DNA of 64,000 bases from Thermoflexus sp. (GTDB lineage: Bacteria; Chloroflexota; Anaerolineae; Thermoflexales; Thermoflexaceae). Under the pieces are notes generated by a model that did not search any database, was not told the origin of the DNA, and saw nothing but the letters and a program-made list of their open reading frames with translations. The stretch covers positions 1 through 64,000 of the forward strand of contig JANXBD010000004.1 of NCBI GenBank assembly GCA_025057635.1. Direction: 5' to 3'. Positions 1,273 through 64,000 of this stretch are shown here, one piece after another (within the stretch, counting starts at the first letter, position 1; each line of letters begins with the position of its first letter). The position numbers were made by a program, and so were the translations under genes.

Positions 1273-2832
1273 TCAGTCGACCCACAGACCGAACTCTAGG
1301 CCGTCCTCTAGGGCGAGCCGGCTGGCCTCCAGGATGTTGGTGGAAGCCCCCACCGTCCGCCAGATGCGCTGGCCGTCGGTGCTCTCGATCCATACCCTCA
1401 CCCGGGCCGCCGTCCCGGCATCCCCGTTTAGGATATGGACCCGGTAATTGGTCAAATGAACGCGGGACAGAACGGGATAGCGAGGGAGGAGCGCCTTGCG
1501 CAGCGCCGCGTCGAGGGCGTTGACCGGGCCGTTGCCCTCCGCGGCCGTGTGCACGGTCTCCCCGTCCACCCGAACCTTCACTGCGGCTTCCGCAACCGGC
1601 TCGCGGCCGTCCCGTCGCTCCACCATCACGACATAATCGAGGACCTCGAAGGGCGGGGTGTAATCCGGCCGCGCGCGCCGCAACATCAGGATCACCGAGG
1701 CCTCCGCGTCCTCGAAGTAGAAACCTTCGTTTTCCAGAGCCTTGATGCGACGCACCACCGCCTGCACCGCCGGATCATCGGGATCCAGCCGCAGCCCGAA
1801 CTCCATCGCCTTGGCGACGATGTTCCCACGCCCGGAGAGCTCAGAGACCAGAACCCGCTTGACGTTGCCCACGCGGGCCGGATCGATGTGCTGATAGCTC
1901 TCTTCCACTTTCAGGATGGCCGCGACGTGGATACCACCCTTGTGGGCGAAGGCGCTGGCCCCCACATAAGGCTGATGGGAATCGTGAGGAAGGTTGGCCA
2001 CCTCCGCCACAAAGCGAGAGATCGCTGTCAGACGGGCCAACTGCTCGTCAGTTACACAATCGATCCCCATCTTAAGCTTCAAGTTGGCAATGATAGAGAT
2101 CAGGTTCGCGTTGCCCACCCGCTCTCCATACCCGTTAATGGTGCCCTGCACCTGTCGGACACCCCGGCGGATCGCCGCTAGGGAATTGGCCACTGCCAGC
2201 TCACTGTCGTTGTGAGCGTGGATGCCGAGGGGAACGGAGACCGCCCGTTTGGCCGCTTCCACCCCGTCCTCAATCTCCCACGGCATGGAGCCGCCGTTGG
2301 TGTCGCAAAGGACGATCCAGTCCGCCCCACCTGCCTGCGCGGCCCGCAGGGTGGCCAGGGCATAATCCGGATTCCGCTTCCAGCCGTCGAAGAAGTGCTC
2401 GGCATCGTAAACGACCTCCCGCCCATGGGCCTTCAGGAGAGCCACGCTCTCCCGGATCATCGCCAGGTTCTCCTCCAGCGTGGTCTCCAGCACGTGATGA
2501 ACGTGGAGGTCCCACGACTTGCCGACCACGGTGACCACTGGGGTCTCCGCCTCCAGCAACGCCCGCAGGTTCTCGTCGTCCTCCGCCCGGCGGCCCGGAC
2601 GTCGGGTCATGCCGAAGGCGGCGATGCGGGCATGGCGAAGCGGCCGATGGCGGACCCGACGGAAGTATTCCGCATCCTTCGGGTTAGAACCTGGCCATCC
2701 ACCCTCGATGTAATGAACACCCAATTCGTCCAGCTTCTCGGTGATCCGGAGCTTATCCTCAACAGTAAAAGAGATCCCTTCCCGCTGACTGCCGTCGCGC
2801 AGCGTCGTATCGTAAAGCCAGACAGATTCCAT
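1273..2832 (-). CDS. cimA: (R)-citramalate synthase
   Basis: MESVWLYDTTLRDGSQREGISFTVEDKLRITEKLDELGVHYIEGGWPGSNPKDAEYF... is typical of the CimA branch of the IPMS/HMGL family, with a LeuA-dimer-like C-terminus. Likely ATG at 2832 preceded by GAGGAGG. Confidence 0.88.
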   Translation of the reverse strand: MESVWLYDTTLRDGSQREGISFTVEDKLRITEKLDELGVHYIEGGWPGSNPKDAEYFRRVRHRPLRHARIAAFGMTRRPGRRAEDDENLRALLEAETPVVTVVGKSWDLHVHHVLETTLEENLAMIRESVALLKAHGREVVYDAEHFFDGWKRNPDYALATLRAAQAGGADWIVLCDTNGGSMPWEIEDGVEAAKRAVSVPLGIHAHNDSELAVANSLAAIRRGVRQVQGTINGYGERVGNANLISIIANLKLKMGIDCVTDEQLARLTAISRFVAEVANLPHDSHQPYVGASAFAHKGGIHVAAILKVEESYQHIDPARVGNVKRVLVSELSGRGNIVAKAMEFGLRLDPDDPAVQAVVRRIKALENEGFYFEDAEASVILMLRRARPDYTPPFEVLDYVVMVERRDGREPVAEAAVKVRVDGETVHTAAEGNGPVNALDAALRKALLPRYPVLSRVHLTNYRVHILNGDAGTAARVRVWIESTDGQRIWRTVGASTNILEASRLALEDGLEFGLWVD

Positions 2833-3026
2833 CGCGCACCTCCTCGACCGGTATAAGTAGCATAGAATGGAAAGTAAAGGATACCGTCCGGCCGAAAACG
2901 GCGGCGATGGCGCGGGCAACCCCGCTTAGGAACCCTATCCAGCGGTTCCAGCGCGGGGCAACCCGGGTCCACCTCCTGTTCCGACGATCCATAGAAACCT
3001 CCCTCGCAACCAGATTCCCTTCCTGG

Positions 3027-3110: not shown

Positions 3111-3623
3111 CTATACGGTGCTTGGTTGAGACTTCGCCAGCCGAGCGCGAGTGTAGGGGATCAGCCCGCCAGCTTGGATCAGCTCAAGCATGAAACGCGG
3201 ATAGGGCTTAGCCCGAAAGGTCTGACCAGTCCGGCAGTTGTGGATCTCCCCAGTGTCCAGGCGAACCTCCAGCTCATCTCCGGGTGCGATCGCCTCCACC
3301 GCCTCCGCGCATTCCAACACAGGGAGGCCAATGTTGATGGCATTGCGGAAGAAAATCCGGGCGAAGGATTTAGCGATCACACATGAAATCCCAGCTGCCC
3401 TCAGACTGATCGGCGCGTGTTCCCGCGAGGATCCGCTCCCGAAATTGCGCCCGGCCACCATGATATCGCCCGGCTGCACCTTGCGGGGGAACTCCGGATC
3501 CACCCCTTCCATACAGTGGGCGGCGAGCTCTTTCGGATCGGTGGTGTTCAGATATCGGCCCGGGATGATCACATCTGTATCAATGTTGTCCCCGAAAACC
3601 CAGGCGCGTCCGCGGAAGCGCAT
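3111..3623 (-). CDS. leuD: 3-isopropylmalate dehydratase small subunit
   Basis: MRFRGRAWVFGDNIDTDVIIPGRYLNTTDPKELAAHCMEG...GRNFGSGSSREHAPISLRAAGISCVIAKSFARIFFRNAINIGLPVLE. Confidence 0.93.
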   Translation of the reverse strand: MRFRGRAWVFGDNIDTDVIIPGRYLNTTDPKELAAHCMEGVDPEFPRKVQPGDIMVAGRNFGSGSSREHAPISLRAAGISCVIAKSFARIFFRNAINIGLPVLECAEAVEAIAPGDELEVRLDTGEIHNCRTGQTFRAKPYPRFMLELIQAGGLIPYTRARLAKSQPSTV

Positions 3624-3681
3624 AACCCCTCCTCCTTGAGATTCCTCAAGTTCAGAAAGGACAAGAAACGAAATCTGCTTG

Positions 3682-4968
3682 CTAACCAGCAAAGGCCTCA
3701 GCCCGGATTTGAATTTCCTCCGGGCTGGCGATGCGACCCAAGATGGCGCTGGCGGCCGCCACAGCGGGATTAGCCAGATACACCTCGCTGGTCGGATGAC
3801 CCATCCGGCCTACAAAGTTACGATTGGTGGTAGAGACACAACGCTCCCCTGGCCCTAGCACCCCGGAGTATCCGCCCATGCATGGGCCACAAGAAGGCAA
3901 GCCCACCACTGCACCTGCTTCCACAAAAATATCGATCAACCCTTCATCTAGCGCCTGACGATACGTAGGCCCACTGCCTGGGATGATGATGCACCGAACC
4001 TCGGGATGCACCCGCTGACCACGAAGGATATGGGCTGCCAGCCGCAAATCCTCAATCCGCCCGTTGGTGCACGAGCCGATGAACACCTGATCGATCCGAA
4101 GATCGGCCAGCTCCCCCACCGGCCGCACATTCGAAGGCAGGTGCGGCACCGCGATCGCGGGCTCCCACTCGCTTACATCGAAATCCAGATCGATCTCATA
4201 TCGGGCATCGGGATCGTCCTTGTAAACTGTGAAGGGCCGCTTCGCTCGAGGGCGGACGTAATCGAGGGTCTTCTCATCGACCTCCATCAGTCCGGCTTTT
4301 GCCCCTGCCTCAATAGCCATGTTCGCGATCGTGAACCGCCCATCCATGCTGAGGGCCTGGATGATCGGTCCGGTGAAGAACATCGCCATATACAGTGCGC
4401 CATCAACGCCGATGCGACCGATGGTGTGAAGGATGAGATCCTTCGCCGTCACCCAGGGCCGGAGTGTGCCGTGATAGTACAAGCGCATGGTGGAGGGCAC
4501 CTTCAGCCAGAGCCGGCCGGTGGCCATCGCCACGGCGGCGTCGGTGGAGCCAACGCCGGTTGAGAAAGCCCCTAGAGCCCCATATGTGCAGGTGTGAGAA
4601 TCCGCCCCGATGATGATCTCCCCGGGCAGCACTAACCCCTGTTCCGGCAGCACAATGTGCTCAATCCCACCGTCCCGCCCGCCCTCAAAGTAAAGGATAC
4701 CCTTGCGACGGGCCCAGTTCCGGACGGCCATGCACTGTTCAGCCGCCTTAATGTTGGGCGGGGGCACAAAATGGTCAGCCACGAAAGCCACCCGTTCCCG
4801 GTCGAAAACCTCTTCGACCTCGAGCTTTGCGAACTCCTGGATGGCCAGGGCAGCCGTAATATCGTTGGCCATCACAAAATCCACCTGCACTTCCACCAGC
4901 TCCCCTGGTTCCACGCGATCCAACCCAGCATGAGCAGCGATGATCTTCTCCGCCATAGTCATCCCCAT
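3682..4968 (-). CDS. leuC: 3-isopropylmalate dehydratase large subunit
   Basis: 428 aa; MTMAEKIIAAHAGLDRVEPGELVEVQVD...GADSHTCTYGALGAFSTGVGSTD...FIGSCTNGRIEDLRLAA...PSCGPCMGG aconitase-family Fe-S motifs. Confidence 0.95.
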   Translation of the reverse strand: MGMTMAEKIIAAHAGLDRVEPGELVEVQVDFVMANDITAALAIQEFAKLEVEEVFDRERVAFVADHFVPPPNIKAAEQCMAVRNWARRKGILYFEGGRDGGIEHIVLPEQGLVLPGEIIIGADSHTCTYGALGAFSTGVGSTDAAVAMATGRLWLKVPSTMRLYYHGTLRPWVTAKDLILHTIGRIGVDGALYMAMFFTGPIIQALSMDGRFTIANMAIEAGAKAGLMEVDEKTLDYVRPRAKRPFTVYKDDPDARYEIDLDFDVSEWEPAIAVPHLPSNVRPVGELADLRIDQVFIGSCTNGRIEDLRLAAHILRGQRVHPEVRCIIIPGSGPTYRQALDEGLIDIFVEAGAVVGLPSCGPCMGGYSGVLGPGERCVSTTNRNFVGRMGHPTSEVYLANPAVAAASAILGRIASPEEIQIRAEAFAG

Positions 4969-5034: not shown

Positions 5035-6621
5035 TCATGGGACCGGGATAGAGATTTTCTCGGTCATGGCAGCCTGAGGCGCGTGACTTAACCGTAGGAG
5101 CGCATGGAGATAGGCCTTCGCAGCTGCCACGACAATATCCGTATCCGCGCCGAATCCGCCAGCGAGGCTACCAGTATGGGGATCCTCCACCTGGACGAAG
5201 ACACGGCCCATTGCATCGCGCCCGGGAGTCACCGCATGGACATTGAATTCCAACAGGCGGGCCTGAACCCCTAAGGCGATCTCAATGGCTCGATAGGCCG
5301 CATCCACTGGCCCGTTTCCGGTTCCCGTGCCCAGACGGATCTCCCCATCGGGTCCTACCAGTCGGACGGTAGCGGTGGCAATTAACGGTGTGCCACAGGT
5401 CACCTGCAGGGTATCCAGCCGCCAGGCCTGGCCGCTGTTCTGAGTGAAATCTGCCATCAGCGCTTCCAGGTCAAAATCCGTCACATACTTCTTGCGGTCA
5501 CACAGCGCTTTAAACCGGCGGAACGCTTCCTCGAAGACGTCCGGCGGGAGGTGATAGCCCATCTGCTCCAGGCGGACCCGGAAGGCGTGCCGCCCGGAGT
5601 GCTTCCCTAGGACTAGCCGGGATTCCGGCACCCCCACAGTCTCCGGCCGCATGATCTCGTAGGTTAGGGGGTTCTTTAGCATCCCATCCTGGTGGATGCC
5701 AGCCTCATGAGCGAAGGCGTTCGCCCCTACGATAGCCTTGTTGGGCTGGACGGGGATGCCAGTGAGGGCGCTCACCAGACGGCTGGTGCGGTAGATCTGG
5801 GTGGTGTCGATATGGGTGCGCACCCCGAACACATCCCGTCGGGTATGAAGGGCCATCACCACTTCCTCGAGAGCCGTATTCCCAGCTCGCTCCCCAATCC
5901 CATTGATGGTGACCTCCACCTGGCGGGCACCGTTGCGGATGGCGGCCAGGGTGTTGGCCGTGGCTAAGCCCAGGTCGTTATGGCAGTGGGCGGAAAGGAT
6001 CACCCGTTCCACTCCAGGAACCCGAAGGCGGATCTCCGCGAAGAGGCTTCCGAACTCCTCTGGGGTAGTGTAACCCACAGTGTCAGGGATATTCAGGGTG
6101 GTCGCGCCAGCTTCCACCGCCACCGTCAGCGCCTGCATCAGAAAATCACGATCAGTTCGTCCTGCATCCTCCGGAGAGAACTCTATATCCTCACACAGAC
6201 GGCGGGCATAGGCCACCATCTCGCGGATCCGAGCTAAGCACTCCTCGCGGGTCATCCGCAGTTTGTACTGCAAATGGATATCAGAGGTCGCTAGGAAAAC
6301 ATGGATTCGAGGGCGAGGAGCTTCCCGCACCGCTTCCCAACACACATCAATGTCCTCGCGATTGGCCCGGGCGAGCCCCGCGATCACTGGAGGGCCGTTC
6401 GGGCGGTCTTTCCCCAGGGGGCCGATCTCCTGGGCGATCCGCCGCACCGCCTCGAAATCGCCCGGCGAGGCGATGGGAAAGCCCGCCTCGATGATGTCCA
6501 CCCCCAGGCGGACCAGCTGCCGGGCGATCTCCAGTTTCTCCTCCACGGTGAGCGTTGCACCGGGTGATTGCTCGCCATCCCGCAGAGTGGTATCGAAAAT
6601 CCGAACGACATCGTCCCCCAT
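5035..6621 (-). CDS. leuA: 2-isopropylmalate synthase
   Basis: 528 aa; [44 protein letters not shown]...[37 protein letters not shown]. Confidence 0.96.
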
Positions 6622-6633
6622 TGAGCCCTCCTT

Positions 6634-7635
6634 TCAAACCTCCTTGGGGTTCAGCCAGGGCATCATGGCCCGCAGGCGACGGCCCACCTGCTCAATCGGA
6701 TGCTGTCGTTCCTCCTCCCGCTTGGCATTAAACCACGGCCGTCCCCTCGCATTCTCCTCAATCCATGACTCCGCATATGATCCGTTGCGGATCTCCTCCA
6801 GGATCTGTTTCATCGTGGCCCGCACGCGCTCATCGATGACTCGTGGCCCGCTTACATAATCGCCGTGCTCTGCGGTGTCGCTGACGGAGTATCGCATATA
6901 AGAAAGCCCGCCCTGATATATTAGATCCACGATCAATTTGAGCTCGTGCAGGCACTCGAAATAAGCAACCTCCGGCTGATAGCCCGCCTCTACAAGGGTC
7001 TCGAAGGCCGCCTTAATCAGATGACTGACCCCACCACACAGCACCACCTGCTCCCCGAAAAGATCGGTCTCCGTTTCCTCCGCGAAGGTCGTCTGGATCA
7101 CCCCCGCTCGGGTGCAGCCGATCCCCTTGGCATAGGCTAAGGCGATGTCCATGGCCTTCCCTGTTGCATCCTGGTGCACAGCCACCAGAGCTGGAACTCC
7201 CCCACCTTCCCTGAACACCTCCCGCATCCGATGACCTGGGGACTTGGGAGCCACCATACTGACGTCCACATCCGGCGGCGGGACGATCTGGCCGAACCGG
7301 ATATTAAAGCCGTGGGCGAACATCAGGGTCTTGCCCGGGGCCAAATTCGGAGCCACCGCTTCCCGATAGAGAGCCGGCTGAGCAGGATCCGGCACCAGCA
7401 TCACAATAATGTCGGAGCGCCGCACCGCCTCGGGGACTTCGTAGACCGGCAATCCATCCGCCTGTGCCTTCGGCCAGGATTTGCTGCCCGGATAAAGGCC
7501 CACGCACACGTCGCACCCGCTGTCTTTCAGGTTCAGCGCATGGGCGTGGCCCTGACTGCCGTAGCCCAGAACAGCGATCCGGCGGCCGTTGAGAAGGCCA
7601 AGATCGGCATCAGCATCATAGTAAATGCGCGCCAT
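6634..7635 (-). CDS. ilvC: Ketol-acid reductoisomerase
   Basis: 333 aa; [47 protein letters not shown]... Confidence 0.97.
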
Positions 7636-7725: not shown

Positions 7726-8244
7726 TCAAGCAGCTGCCTCGGTCACTCGATCGGCTAGCGCCGCCTCAGCCTGTCCTCGGACCATCGCCATCGGCCCGGA
7801 ACGGATTACCTCTATCACACCGAACCGCTCCAAGCGGGCGATGCATGAATCCACCTTCTCCCTCGAGCCTGTGACTTCCACAATGAGGGTCTCCGCGCCC
7901 ACATCCACGACCCGCGCTCGATAAAACTCCGCTAGCTGGGCAATCTCTACCCAAGTCTCCGCTGGCGCTCGAACCTTCACCAGGGCCACGTCGCGGACCA
8001 CCAGTGTGCACTCTCTCCAATCCTCCACAGCCTTCACGCAGAGCAATTTCTCCAAGTTAGTCCGAACCCGATAGGGATCCACTCGGGCTGGATCCACCTC
8101 GATCAGAAGGCGAAGATCCTGAGGATCCCCAGTCCGATGCATGAAGATCTCACCGACCGGGAGATGGCGTCGGCGCAGCAGATGGAACACACGATTCAAA
8201 CTTTCCACTGAGTTCTCAACAGTCACCGCCAGCCAGTGTGGCAT
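7726..8244 (-). CDS. ilvN: Acetolactate synthase small (regulatory) subunit
   Basis: MPHWLAVTVENSVESLNRVFHLLRRRHLPVGEIFMHRTGDPQDLRLLIEVD..., ACT-domain family. Start at ATG 8244 rather than the ORF-track start. Confidence 0.85.
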   Translation of the reverse strand: MPHWLAVTVENSVESLNRVFHLLRRRHLPVGEIFMHRTGDPQDLRLLIEVDPARVDPYRVRTNLEKLLCVKAVEDWRECTLVVRDVALVKVRAPAETWVEIAQLAEFYRARVVDVGAETLIVEVTGSREKVDSCIARLERFGVIEVIRSGPMAMVRGQAEAALADRVTEAAA

Positions 8245-8388
8245 CTCGCCTCCTCGCATCCCAAACATCCCCTGCTCTACATGCAATATGCCTAAGTGAG
8301 CCGGTGGGAAATCCACCGCTTGCGCTTGGGCGCGTTATCTCTCATTGGCTCTGACGCTAGCCGATGAGGCACGCACTTCCCCACAGGC

Positions 8389-10146
8389 CTATGGCACAGC
8401 CTTGACGCCAGGGGCAATCATCATGTCAAACACCGTCATCCCGGAGGGGATCATCGGGAAGCAGTTCTCCTCCGGATCCACGAGAATATCGACCACCACC
8501 GGCCGATCGGTGATGGCCAGGGCCTGCCGGACTGCTGGCTCCACCTGATCCGGCCGCTCCACCCGGATCCCGGCAGCACCCACTGCCTCCGCCAGACGGG
8601 CGAAGTCTGGGTTGGCCAGGTAGACGGCAGAGTAGCGCCGGTTGTAGAACAGCTCCTGCCACTGGCGGACCATGCCCAGATACTGGTTGTTGATGATAAA
8701 GACCTTGATCGGCAGCCGCCATTCCACAGCGGTGATGAGGGCCTGGAAGGTCATCTGGAAGGACCCGTCGCCGTTGATGTTGATCACTAGGCGGTCTGGG
8801 CGTCCGAACTGGGCGCCGACCGCCGCGGGCAGGCTGAAGCCCATCGTCCCCAGCCCACCGGAGGTGATGCAGGTCCGCGGCTCCGTCCACGTAAAGAACT
8901 GGGCAGCCCACATCTGGTGCTGGCCCACATCCAGCGTCACAATCGGCCGATAATCCTTTGTCAACTCATAGATCATCTCGATGGCAAACTGCGGCTTGAT
9001 CACATCATCCCCCTGCCGGTAGCGCAACGGATATCGGGACTTCCACTCCTCGATCTGTCGCCACCAGGCCTCGGTGTCAGGCGGACGGACTAGCGGCAAC
9101 AATGCTCGGAGCACCTGTTTAGCATCCCCAATCAGTGGGACATCAGCTCGGCGGTTCTTGTGGATCTCCGAAGGATCGATGTCGATGTGAATCACCTTCG
9201 CATGGGGAGCGAAGGCGGAGAGCTTGCCAGTCACCCGATCATCGAAGCGGGCGCCGACGGCGATGATAAGATCGGAGAAATTGATGGCGAAGTTCGCGTA
9301 AACCGTCCCATGCATTCCCAGCATTTTGAGAGCATAGGGGTGATCCTCGGGGAAAGCCCCGAGGCCCATCAGCGTGGTGGCCACCGGGATGCGGGCCTTT
9401 TCCGCCAATGCCCGGATCTCAGGGGCCGCGCCGGAATGAATAGCTCCACCGCCTACATAAAGGATGGGACGTTTGGATTCAGCGATGAGATCTGCGGCCT
9501 GTCGAAGCGCTAACTCACTGGGGAAGGGAGAGCGAGAGCGTGAGGGCCGAAACGTCTCGGGGTCTTCGAAGACGAAATCCGCCTCCATGAGGAGCACATC
9601 CCGCGGGATATCCACCAGGGTCGGGCCGGGCCGCCCATCGGTAGCCAGGCGGAAGGCCATGTGAACGGCCTCGGGAGCCTGGGCGGGCTTTCTCACCAGC
9701 CAGTTGTGCTTGGTGACCGACATCGTGAGGCCGATCACGTCCGCTTCCTGGAACGCATCGCCGCCCATAAAGAACGTGGGAACCTGACCGGTGATCGCCA
9801 CCACCGGCGTGGAGTCCATCATCGCGTCTGTGAGGCCGGTTACCAGATTCGTTGCCCCAGGCCCTGAGGTCGTGAAGCACACTCCAGGTTTCCCAGTGGC
9901 TCGGGCGTAGCCCTCGGCCATATGGACGGCGGACTGTTCATGGCGGACGAGGATATGGCGGATCTGAGGATAATCACAAAGCGCATCATAGAGGGGCAAA
10001 CAAGCACCTCCAGGGAGGCCGAAAGCAACGTCCACACCCTCACGGACTAAGGCCTCCATCACGGCCCACGCCGTCTTCATCCGACGGCGCTCCCGTCGGA
10101 ACGTGCGGGAGATCACCGAAGTCTGAGCAATGGTCGCTGCTTCCAT
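8389..10146 (-). CDS. ilvB: Acetolactate synthase large (catalytic) subunit
   Basis: 585 aa ThDP enzyme; MKTAWAVMEALVREGVDVAFGLPGGACLPLYDAL...TSGPGATNLVTGLTDAMMDSTPVVAITGQV... Confidence 0.96.
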   Translation of the reverse strand: MEAATIAQTSVISRTFRRERRRMKTAWAVMEALVREGVDVAFGLPGGACLPLYDALCDYPQIRHILVRHEQSAVHMAEGYARATGKPGVCFTTSGPGATNLVTGLTDAMMDSTPVVAITGQVPTFFMGGDAFQEADVIGLTMSVTKHNWLVRKPAQAPEAVHMAFRLATDGRPGPTLVDIPRDVLLMEADFVFEDPETFRPSRSRSPFPSELALRQAADLIAESKRPILYVGGGAIHSGAAPEIRALAEKARIPVATTLMGLGAFPEDHPYALKMLGMHGTVYANFAINFSDLIIAVGARFDDRVTGKLSAFAPHAKVIHIDIDPSEIHKNRRADVPLIGDAKQVLRALLPLVRPPDTEAWWRQIEEWKSRYPLRYRQGDDVIKPQFAIEMIYELTKDYRPIVTLDVGQHQMWAAQFFTWTEPRTCITSGGLGTMGFSLPAAVGAQFGRPDRLVININGDGSFQMTFQALITAVEWRLPIKVFIINNQYLGMVRQWQELFYNRRYSAVYLANPDFARLAEAVGAAGIRVERPDQVEPAVRQALAITDRPVVVDILVDPEENCFPMIPSGMTVFDMMIAPGVKAVP

Positions 10147-10175
10147 TGGATCCCTCCTTTCATGGGACAGGGATA

Positions 10176-10210
10176 AAAAGGAGGGGGCCTCCCGTTTGGG
10201 AGGCCCCCTC
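10176..10210 (-). terminator. ilv attenuator terminator hairpin
   Basis: Minus strand: GAGGGGGCCTCCC-AAAC-GGGAGGCCCCCTCCTTTTT, an 11-bp perfect stem plus T run, ~30 nt before the ilvB start. Confidence 0.92.
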
Positions 10211-10247
10211 TTGATTTACCGATATGCTATGCAGAGCGCAACCCGGG

Positions 10248-10358
10248 CTACTCAGGGATGGTTCCCTCCCAAACGGGCATCGCCTCTCCGAGGCGAAGGA
10301 TGCCCCGAAGGATAAGGACGACTAGGACGAGGGAGAGAACCACCAGACCCATAAACAT
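10248..10358 (-). CDS. ilv operon leader peptide (attenuator), 36 aa
   Basis: ATG TTT ATG GGT CTG GTG GTT CTC TCC CTC GTC CTA GTC GTC CTT ATC CTT CGG GGC ATC CTT CGC CTC ... TAG = MFMGLVVLSLVLVVLILRGILRLGEAMPVWEGTIPE. There are 13 Leu/Val/Ile among codons 5-17 and 20-21 apart from S9. It lies between a consensus promoter and an intrinsic terminator ahead of ilvB. Confidence 0.85.
   Translation of the reverse strand: MFMGLVVLSLVLVVLILRGILRLGEAMPVWEGTIPE
10265..10305 (-). promoter_or_regulatory. Attenuator antiterminator and protector arms
   Basis: Plus-strand CCTCCCAAACGGG (10265-10277) is the perfect 13-nt reverse complement of CCCGTTTGGGAGG (10191-10203) in the terminator. Protector hairpin: GGGCATCGCCTC (10275-10286) pairs with GAGGCG-(AAGG)-ATGCCC (10290-10305). 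Confidence 0.85.
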
Positions 10359-10394
10359 GGGAAATCATTCCTGAGCATTCAGAATCTGAACCTA

Positions 10395-10423
10395 CTTATA
10401 ACACAGACTTAGAATTTTGTCAA
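10395..10423 (-). promoter_or_regulatory. Sigma70-type promoter of the ilv-leu operon
   Basis: Minus strand TTGACA (10423-10418), 17-nt spacer, TATAAG (10400-10395). Confidence 0.88.
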
Positions 10424-10537: not shown

Positions 10538-11263
10538 TCAGCTCCTCCGAAAGCAGATCCACCATTGCGGGAGGGTCTCCTTGACCGGGCCGCGCCAGAT
10601 CTCAGCCATCAGAGGCGTCAGCAAGGTATCCTCGAGGTTGAATTCCACCAGATAAGCGCCATGAGCTCGGGCCAGACGGGGGAGGCTGGCCGCCGGTTCC
10701 ACGATCCCCGAGGTGCCAATCACTAGGAAGATCTCGGCCTCGCAGGCCGCTTCCATCGCATGCCGCCACTCCTCGGGAGGAAGGGGCTCGCCGAACCACA
10801 CCACATCCGGCCGCAAAAACGCCCCACACGTCGGGCAGCGCGGTGGCAGCTCCGGGAGCGGGACATGATGATCTTCCCATACATGCCCTTCTCGAGGACA
10901 CCGAACCCGCCACAGGTTCCCATGGAGCTCGACCACCCGGCGGTTGCCGGCCCGTTGGTGCAGGCCGTCCACGTTCTGGGTGATGAGCAGAAAGCCGGGC
11001 AGGACGGCTTCCATCTCCGCCAGGGTCTGATGAGCGGGGTTCGGCTCCGCGCGGGCGATGAGCTCCCGACGCCATGCATACCACTCCCAGACCCGCAAGG
11101 GATCGCGGGCGAAGGCTTCCGGGGTCGCTAGCTCCTCTAGGCGATACCGTCCCCAGAGGCCATCAGGCCCCCGAAAGGTCGGCACCCCACTTTCCGCCGA
11201 GATCCCCGCTCCGGTCAGCACGACCATCCGAGGTCCGAATTCCGCGAAGCCCTTCATCCACAT
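10538..11263 (-). CDS. NAD-dependent protein deacylase (sirtuin)
   Basis: [28 protein letters not shown]...[27 protein letters not shown]...VVWFGEPLP, Sir2 motifs. Likely ATG at 11263 rather than the longer ORF start. Confidence 0.93.
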
Positions 11264-63577: not shown

Positions 63578-63777
63578 TGAAAACAAAATGCCCCGCCGTG
63601 CCGTGGGCCGCTGGGCTGATGCACCCGCTCGCTTAGGTGGGGGTCTCCTGCTGGTTGCCGCCTTGACGTGCCCCGCGCGCAGGCCGTCTAACGCGTCCCC
63701 ACGCTAGAGTCCGACCCCCCTTTGAAAAGGTGTTGGCGCAAGCCGCTGAACACGACCTCACGCACACAGCCGGGCTA
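63578..63777 (-). ncRNA. Candidate ~200-nt structured small RNA (6S-like shape; family not established)
   Basis: Minus-strand promoter TTGCCT (63812-63807)/18 nt/TAAAAT (63788-63783). The 5' end GCCCGGCTGTG pairs with the 3' end CACGGCGGGGC, followed by ATTTTGTTTT. Several internal stems; no convincing ORF. Confidence 0.4.
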
Positions 63778-64000
63778 ACCTTATTTTAACCAGAGCCCCC
63801 CCCGAGAGGCAAGAAAAGTCAATCCGAAAATCCTTTCATCGGGGGTTGTTGACACCTCATCAGAGACCCGCAAGCGAATGAGGCGCCTCAGCCAGGTCTA
63901 AAACATCCCGATCAAGTGGCATCAGGAGCGTAAAAGCGTTATGATCATAATAAGGAACTACACCGTCTGACCTCTAACCGGGAGATCGGGGCGCACATTC

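Follow-up and report, generated by a model that had tools for sequence, protein, structure and literature searches.

A predicted leader-peptide attenuator ahead of the ilv-leu operon of Thermoflexus and related leaders across its class

This study indicates that the ilvBNC-leuACD-cimA operon of Thermoflexus sp. is, with high probability, controlled by a classical ribosome-mediated (leader-peptide) transcription attenuator. The element lies on the minus strand of the window, by which we mean the whole stretch of 64,000 nucleotides that was analysed. This reading is based on the anatomy of the region, its conservation, the covariation of its pairing strands and the mutual exclusion of its pairings in equilibrium models. 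The use of the promoter, the translation of the leader, the stalling of the ribosome and the control of readthrough by amino-acid supply are predictions from the sequence and from modelling. An initial annotation, made from the window sequence alone, had proposed an ilv-leu attenuator following the logic of Escherichia coli, and the anatomy, the conservation, the cross-family covariation and the fold modelling all support that proposal. The mechanism itself is not new, while the lineage and the RNA family apparently are.

The element is situated between a sirtuin-like gene, which ends at 10538 on the same strand, and ilvB, which starts at 10146. A predicted promoter, TTGACA-17-TATAAG (10395..10423, minus strand), can be read directly, with TTGACA at 10423-10418 and TATAAG at 10400-10395. 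It is followed by a predicted leader ORF of 36 codons plus TAG (10248..10358, minus strand; ATG at 10358, TAG at 10250-10248), likewise read directly, which is shorter than the length limits of ordinary ORF listings. The encoded peptide, MFMGLVVLSLVLVVLILRGILRLGEAMPVWEGTIPE, contains a dense run of Leu, Val and Ile at codons 5-17 (10346-10308), referred to here as the control run. Further along the ORF, within Pro-Val-Trp-Glu-Gly codons, lies the antiterminator 5' strand, CCCGTTTGGGAGG (10265..10277, minus strand). Over 13 bp it is a perfect complement (10277-10265 with 10203-10191) of the antiterminator 3' strand, CCTCCCAAACGGG (10191..10203, minus strand), which comprises the 5' arm of the terminator, its loop and 3 nt of its 3' arm. 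The predicted intrinsic terminator (10175..10210, minus strand) consists of a 13-bp G+C-rich stem (10210-10181) with an AAAC loop, followed by CTTTTT. The ribosome site of ilvB is located 3' of the terminator and takes no part in the switching pairs. The promoter, the 36-residue leader, the 13-nt complement and the terminator were each found on the minus strand where the initial annotation had placed them.

The genes downstream, all on the minus strand, were assigned with TIGR models and scored above the respective cut-offs. The first gene of the operon is ilvB, the acetolactate synthase large subunit (8389..10146; TIGR00118, 764 bits, cut-off 538). It is followed by ilvN, the acetolactate synthase small subunit, whose start is uncertain (7726..8316; TIGR00119, 106 bits, cut-off 57), ilvC, ketol-acid reductoisomerase (6634..7635; TIGR00465, 450 bits, cut-off 226), and leuA, 2-isopropylmalate synthase (5035..6621; TIGR00973, 712 bits, cut-off 599). 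The 3-isopropylmalate dehydratase is represented by leuC, its large subunit (3682..4968; TIGR02083, 637 bits, cut-off 611), and leuD, its small subunit (3111..3629; TIGR02087, 221 bits, cut-off 109; the start is our choice). The last gene is cimA, citramalate synthase of the isoleucine branch (1273..2841; TIGR00977, 740 bits, cut-off 450; the start is again our choice). Given this gene set, the operon serves valine, leucine and, via citramalate, isoleucine. In G001, G003, G004, G005 and G006, a further gene of the pathway, ilvD, follows ilvB on the same strand at a distance of about 8-10 kb, and no leader was found ahead of ilvD in the same-genus genomes. Elsewhere in the window, a 6S RNA (RF00013) was matched at 63586-63778 on the minus strand with 48.1 bits, just above the curated cut-off.

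With regard to the folding of the leader RNA, its energy lies 6 sd below that of its own shuffles. The minimum-energy fold comprises the terminator and a long-range stem of 14 bp, 10344-10331 : 10270-10257, which we regard as the protector. Its 5' strand, GGTGGTTCTCTCCC (10331..10344, minus strand), is formed by the codons Val6, Val7, Leu8, Ser9 and Leu10 and is supported by the minimum-energy and centroid folds and by a cross-family pairing test. Its 3' strand, GGGAGGGAACCATC (10257..10270, minus strand), is supported by the fold and by the same test, and has 6 nt in common with the antiterminator strand. In the fold models the protector of the window shares nucleotides with the control codons as well as with the antiterminator strand, and its pairing probability at equilibrium is 0.99 without a ribosome. 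The initial annotation had instead assigned the protector role to a local hairpin at 10275..10305 (minus strand). This hairpin does form in isolation (-19.7 kcal/mol), but we rejected it as the main protector, as no more than 3 nt (CCC) of it fall within the antiterminator strand and its probability in the full-length leader is near zero. It is at most accessory, and may have a transient or pausing role.

The proposed mechanism is as follows. Judging from the promoter, transcription would begin some 30 nt before the leader ORF. When no ribosome is present, or when it has passed and gone, strand 1 (10344-10331) would pair with strand 2 (10270-10257). This pairing would hide the antiterminator strand, the terminator (10210-10181) would fold, and the polymerase would stop before ilvB. 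A shortage of tRNA charged with Leu, Val or Ile would stall the ribosome on codons 5-17, where it would cover strand 1. Strand 2 would thereby be freed, 10277-10265 would pair with 10203-10191 as soon as the latter is transcribed, and the terminator would be pre-empted, allowing the operon to be read.

We modelled this competition at equilibrium with an assumed ribosome footprint masked and the polymerase halted once the antiterminator 3' strand had just emerged. The probability of the antiterminator was 0.003 without a ribosome and 0.91-0.99 with the A site on codons 3-19, in line with the earlier proposal that stalling on Val, Leu or Ile codons frees the antiterminator, once the protector arm is corrected. 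It then fell to 0.54 on codon 20 and about 0 on codons 21-22, rose to 0.90 on codon 23, and was 0.38 on codon 24 and about 0 over codons 25-36, with 0.54 for a ribosome at the stop codon. When the ribosome was instead modelled more simply, as removing all RNA as far as its leading edge from pairing, the probability was about 0.9-1.0 on codons 3-24 and 0 from codon 27. The control run lies within the antitermination window in both ribosome models. The initial annotation had supposed that a ribosome at TAG covers the antiterminator; this position gave only a partial block, and the block was close to complete with the ribosome on codons 25-36. In these models, termination is better explained by a default protector together with ribosomes crossing codons 25-36 than by a ribosome at the stop codon. 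The completed terminator wins in every state at equilibrium, which makes co-transcriptional timing essential; the models used here are equilibrium models only.

Eight genomes of the same genus have the locus, and all of them retain the promoter, a leader in frame, both antiterminator strands and the terminator, whereas the flanking DNA has diverged. The TTGACA-17-TATAA(A/G) promoter is found in 8/8, although the DNA farther upstream diverges, and the ATG and TAG of the leader are in frame in 8/8. Several exchanges among Ile, Leu and Val are observed inside the control run. The antiterminator pairing is maintained, with a single mismatch in the terminator strand of L008. As a separate observation on codon usage, CTG accounts for 1 of 8 Leu codons and GTG for 1 of 6 Val codons in the leader, compared with 50% and 57% in the neighbouring genes, these being few codons that are constrained by pairing.

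Covariation, which the initial annotation had suggested checking, was assessed in 44 genera of 23 families, each genus being represented by a single locus. The antiterminator pairing score between the end of the leader and the 5' half of the terminator averaged 13.3 within genomes and 9.2 when terminators were swapped between families; 0 of 5,000 permutations reached the observed mean, and shuffled leader ends gave 7.5. Among the 36 genera scoring at least 10, most core positions of the antiterminator are occupied by two to four Watson-Crick types across families, with few mismatches. As the best pairing was chosen for each genome, the high paired fraction is partly due to construction, and more weight should be given to the swap test. 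Covariation is weaker for the protector pairing (10.9 versus 8.86 between families, 0/5,000; 8.9 with the 5' strand shuffled). Its overlap with the antiterminator strand amounts to at least 4 nt in 31 of 44 genera, and is weaker across the class than in the window.

The distribution of the element was examined with a strict scan, which required three things: a leader in which I/L/V make up at least 7 of 10 codons, a terminator behind it, and an antiterminator complement. Class, family and genus refer here to groupings from a genome kinship listing. Of the 110 ilvB loci in the class, 55 (from 38 genera and 19 families) carried the three-part design, compared with 0 of 440 dinucleotide shuffles of these loci, 0 of 110 on their reverse strand and 0 of 80 outgroup ilvB loci from named genomes. 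These three rates are the fair yardstick, because the thresholds were chosen after the genus alignment and a first scan of the class. As the loci cluster by family, 55 loci do not represent 55 independent events, hence the tests at the genus and family levels. Orthologous ilvB leaders, which the initial annotation had named as a comparison able to refute its proposal, retain the ORF and the competing hairpins in all same-genus genomes holding the locus and in half of the class loci. Beyond the class, the same scan was passed by 10 of 60 ilvB loci that belong to the phylum's other classes.

The loci of the class that did not pass can be largely accounted for. At 59 class loci ilvB is apparently the first gene; 44 of these satisfy the strict scan, and 55, all but four, have a BCAA-rich leader. 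At L014 and L024, ilvD is actually first and the leader lies ahead of it (L253, L256); L020 and L025 have no BCAA-rich leader, though ilvB appears to head the operon. At 20 class loci another gene precedes ilvB, and a leader, terminator and antiterminator were found ahead of that gene in 15 of them (reading 2-3.7 kb upstream, with an antiterminator threshold of 8.5 instead of 10), which indicates that the element goes with the first gene of the operon. Identified by eye from its protein sequence, the preceding gene is mostly ilvD, and resembles a branched-chain aminotransferase gene in L267 and L270. In four of the 20, the BCAA-rich leader is not accompanied by a qualifying terminator, and L255 lacks both. 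A real loss of the element in half of the class loci was therefore mostly rejected, since ilvB is preceded there by a gene with the attenuator ahead.

The leaders themselves are diverse. Runs in the class reach 9-10 I/L/V in 10 codons, and the peptides vary widely between families outside this run and the codons of the antiterminator strand. In family f31 (L155, L160, L172 and others), the ORF encodes a local hairpin, GCTCCTTG...AAGGAGC, immediately 5' of the antiterminator strand (peptide ..LLVI.KEP..), which may be a pause hairpin to judge by its sequence. Candidate leader peptides before ilvB in other classes were noted at L207, L226, L231, L238, L240, L242, L243, L246, L249 and L250; L207 has the same antiterminator core as the window, CCGTTTGGGAGG, and the leaders of the f72 loci L231 and L238 are much longer. 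A Val/Leu-containing short ORF followed by a terminator was also seen at -191 to -46 from the ilvB match of L079, an uncultured member of the named set, below the threshold of the strict scan. The state of the leader without a ribosome likewise differs: the antiterminator probability is 1.0 for L141 and L112, and between 0 and 0.2 for L161, L021 and L027. In L141 and L112, a ribosome finishing the leader would be needed for termination, as modelled from single sequences.

Four other explanations of the region were considered. The short ORF could encode a functional small membrane protein, with the terminator acting as a plain attenuating or processing site unlinked to translation. The hydrophobic run could indeed span a membrane, as judged from the sequence. 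However, the runs of up to 9-10 I/L/V in 10 codons, together with peptides that diverge between families outside the run and the antiterminator codons while keeping complementarity to their own terminator, make this very unlikely. We consider it highly unlikely that a regulatory RNA binding a small molecule or a tRNA directly, such as a riboswitch or T-box, controls the terminator and that the ORF is incidental. T-boxes do occur before ilvB in other classes of the phylum, but the I/L/V-rich ORF is found class-wide and the window leader has no Rfam match even at a permissive threshold. At the curated scores of Rfam release 15 (4,227 families) the leader likewise had no match, the best of leader type being Phe_leader at 16.9 bits against a cut-off of 55, which is attributable to chance, and the T-box covariance model (RF00230) did not match it.

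Action of the leader through ilvB translation or Rho rather than the intrinsic terminator, as known in some other attenuators (PMC1262725, PMC9413887), appears extremely unlikely here, given that a 13-bp hairpin with T5 ahead of ilvB is kept in the genus and that the ilvB ribosome site is downstream of the terminator and apart from the pairs that switch. That the hairpin merely terminates the sirtuin-like gene, which does end upstream on the same strand, and that the remainder is coincidence, can be practically dismissed: a conserved promoter separates that gene from the hairpin, and the arrangement, being class-wide and absent from shuffles, already refutes this explanation by its conservation. 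Leader-peptide attenuation thus remains the preferred reading.

The ilvGMEDA, ilvBN and leuABCD operons of E. coli and Salmonella are controlled by leader-peptide attenuators. The element described here resembles them in the type of operon, in a leader peptide rich in the end products and in three mutually exclusive pairings (protector, antiterminator and terminator). It differs in phylum and sequence, in that the leader ORF itself contains the antiterminator strand, ahead of the stop codon, and in that the protector 5' strand consists of control codons. Among ilv leaders outside the Proteobacteria, that of Staphylococcus aureus ilvD also combines an Ile/Leu-rich leader peptide with a terminator before an ilv-leu operon (PMC5794164). 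There, however, the proposed antiterminator pairs with the U tract of the terminator rather than with its 5' arm and loop, and CodY acts as well (PMC5794164). Actinobacterial ilvB leaders, such as that of Corynebacterium glutamicum ilvBNC (PMC11857589, PMC1262725), similarly have a BCAA-rich leader ORF and a terminator before ilvB. In contrast to the present case, where ORF, antiterminator and terminator are separate and covarying, the ORFs in a 2005 comparison overlapped the terminator, and that study did not settle how regulation works (PMC1262725). A similar ilvB leader of Streptomyces coelicolor gave no response to codon mutation (PMC1262725), which calls for caution in reading such leaders as attenuators.

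T-box leaders of BCAA genes (RF00230) share with the present element the sensing of tRNA charging and, in other classes of the phylum, the control of ilvB; unlike it, they read uncharged tRNA directly and have no leader peptide. Above the cut-off, a T-box was found upstream of ilvB in 10 of the 60 loci from other classes (L192, L208, L217, L219, L221, L224, L227, L236, L241 and L248). Within the same genus, a T-box-like leader lies upstream of trpE (L281:3005-3337, minus strand; 63 bits, E 2.6e-13, below the cut-off of 93), and no convincing Trp- or His-rich leader was found ahead of trpE or hisG. In this genus, trp thus appears to be under T-box control and ilv-leu under that of a leader peptide. 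CGTCCC-type terminators before trpE were also noted in L280 and L282-L287. T-boxes had been reported earlier in the same phylum, in Dehalococcoides, for Ile-tRNA ligase and trp genes (PMC2494555).

Most of what is known of leader-peptide attenuation comes from Proteobacteria, and cases exist in Actinobacteria and Firmicutes. According to a 2010 survey of premature terminators, which added cases in Firmicutes, only Proteobacteria and Actinobacteria had until then been known to have leader-peptide systems (PMC2965389). We found no earlier report of leader peptides in Chloroflexi or Anaerolineae among open-access full texts, a scope that does not prove priority. On balance, we favour the view that these leaders form a family of BCAA leader-peptide attenuators that is class-wide and in part phylum-wide, with the antiterminator strand inside the leader ORF (PVG, PFG or PVW codons). 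Its default without a ribosome would vary by lineage, with termination in the genus of the window and readthrough elsewhere. The family would alternate with T-boxes on the same operon, the sensors replacing each other within the phylum, and one genus would combine a leader peptide for ilv-leu with a T-box-like leader for trp. With leader peptides as the common predicted control of BCAA operons throughout a deep class of a further phylum, Chloroflexota, the mechanism may be older, or may have evolved more frequently, than assumed so far. The alternation of the two sensors, T-box and leader peptide, at a single gene offers a natural series for how RNA sensors replace each other.
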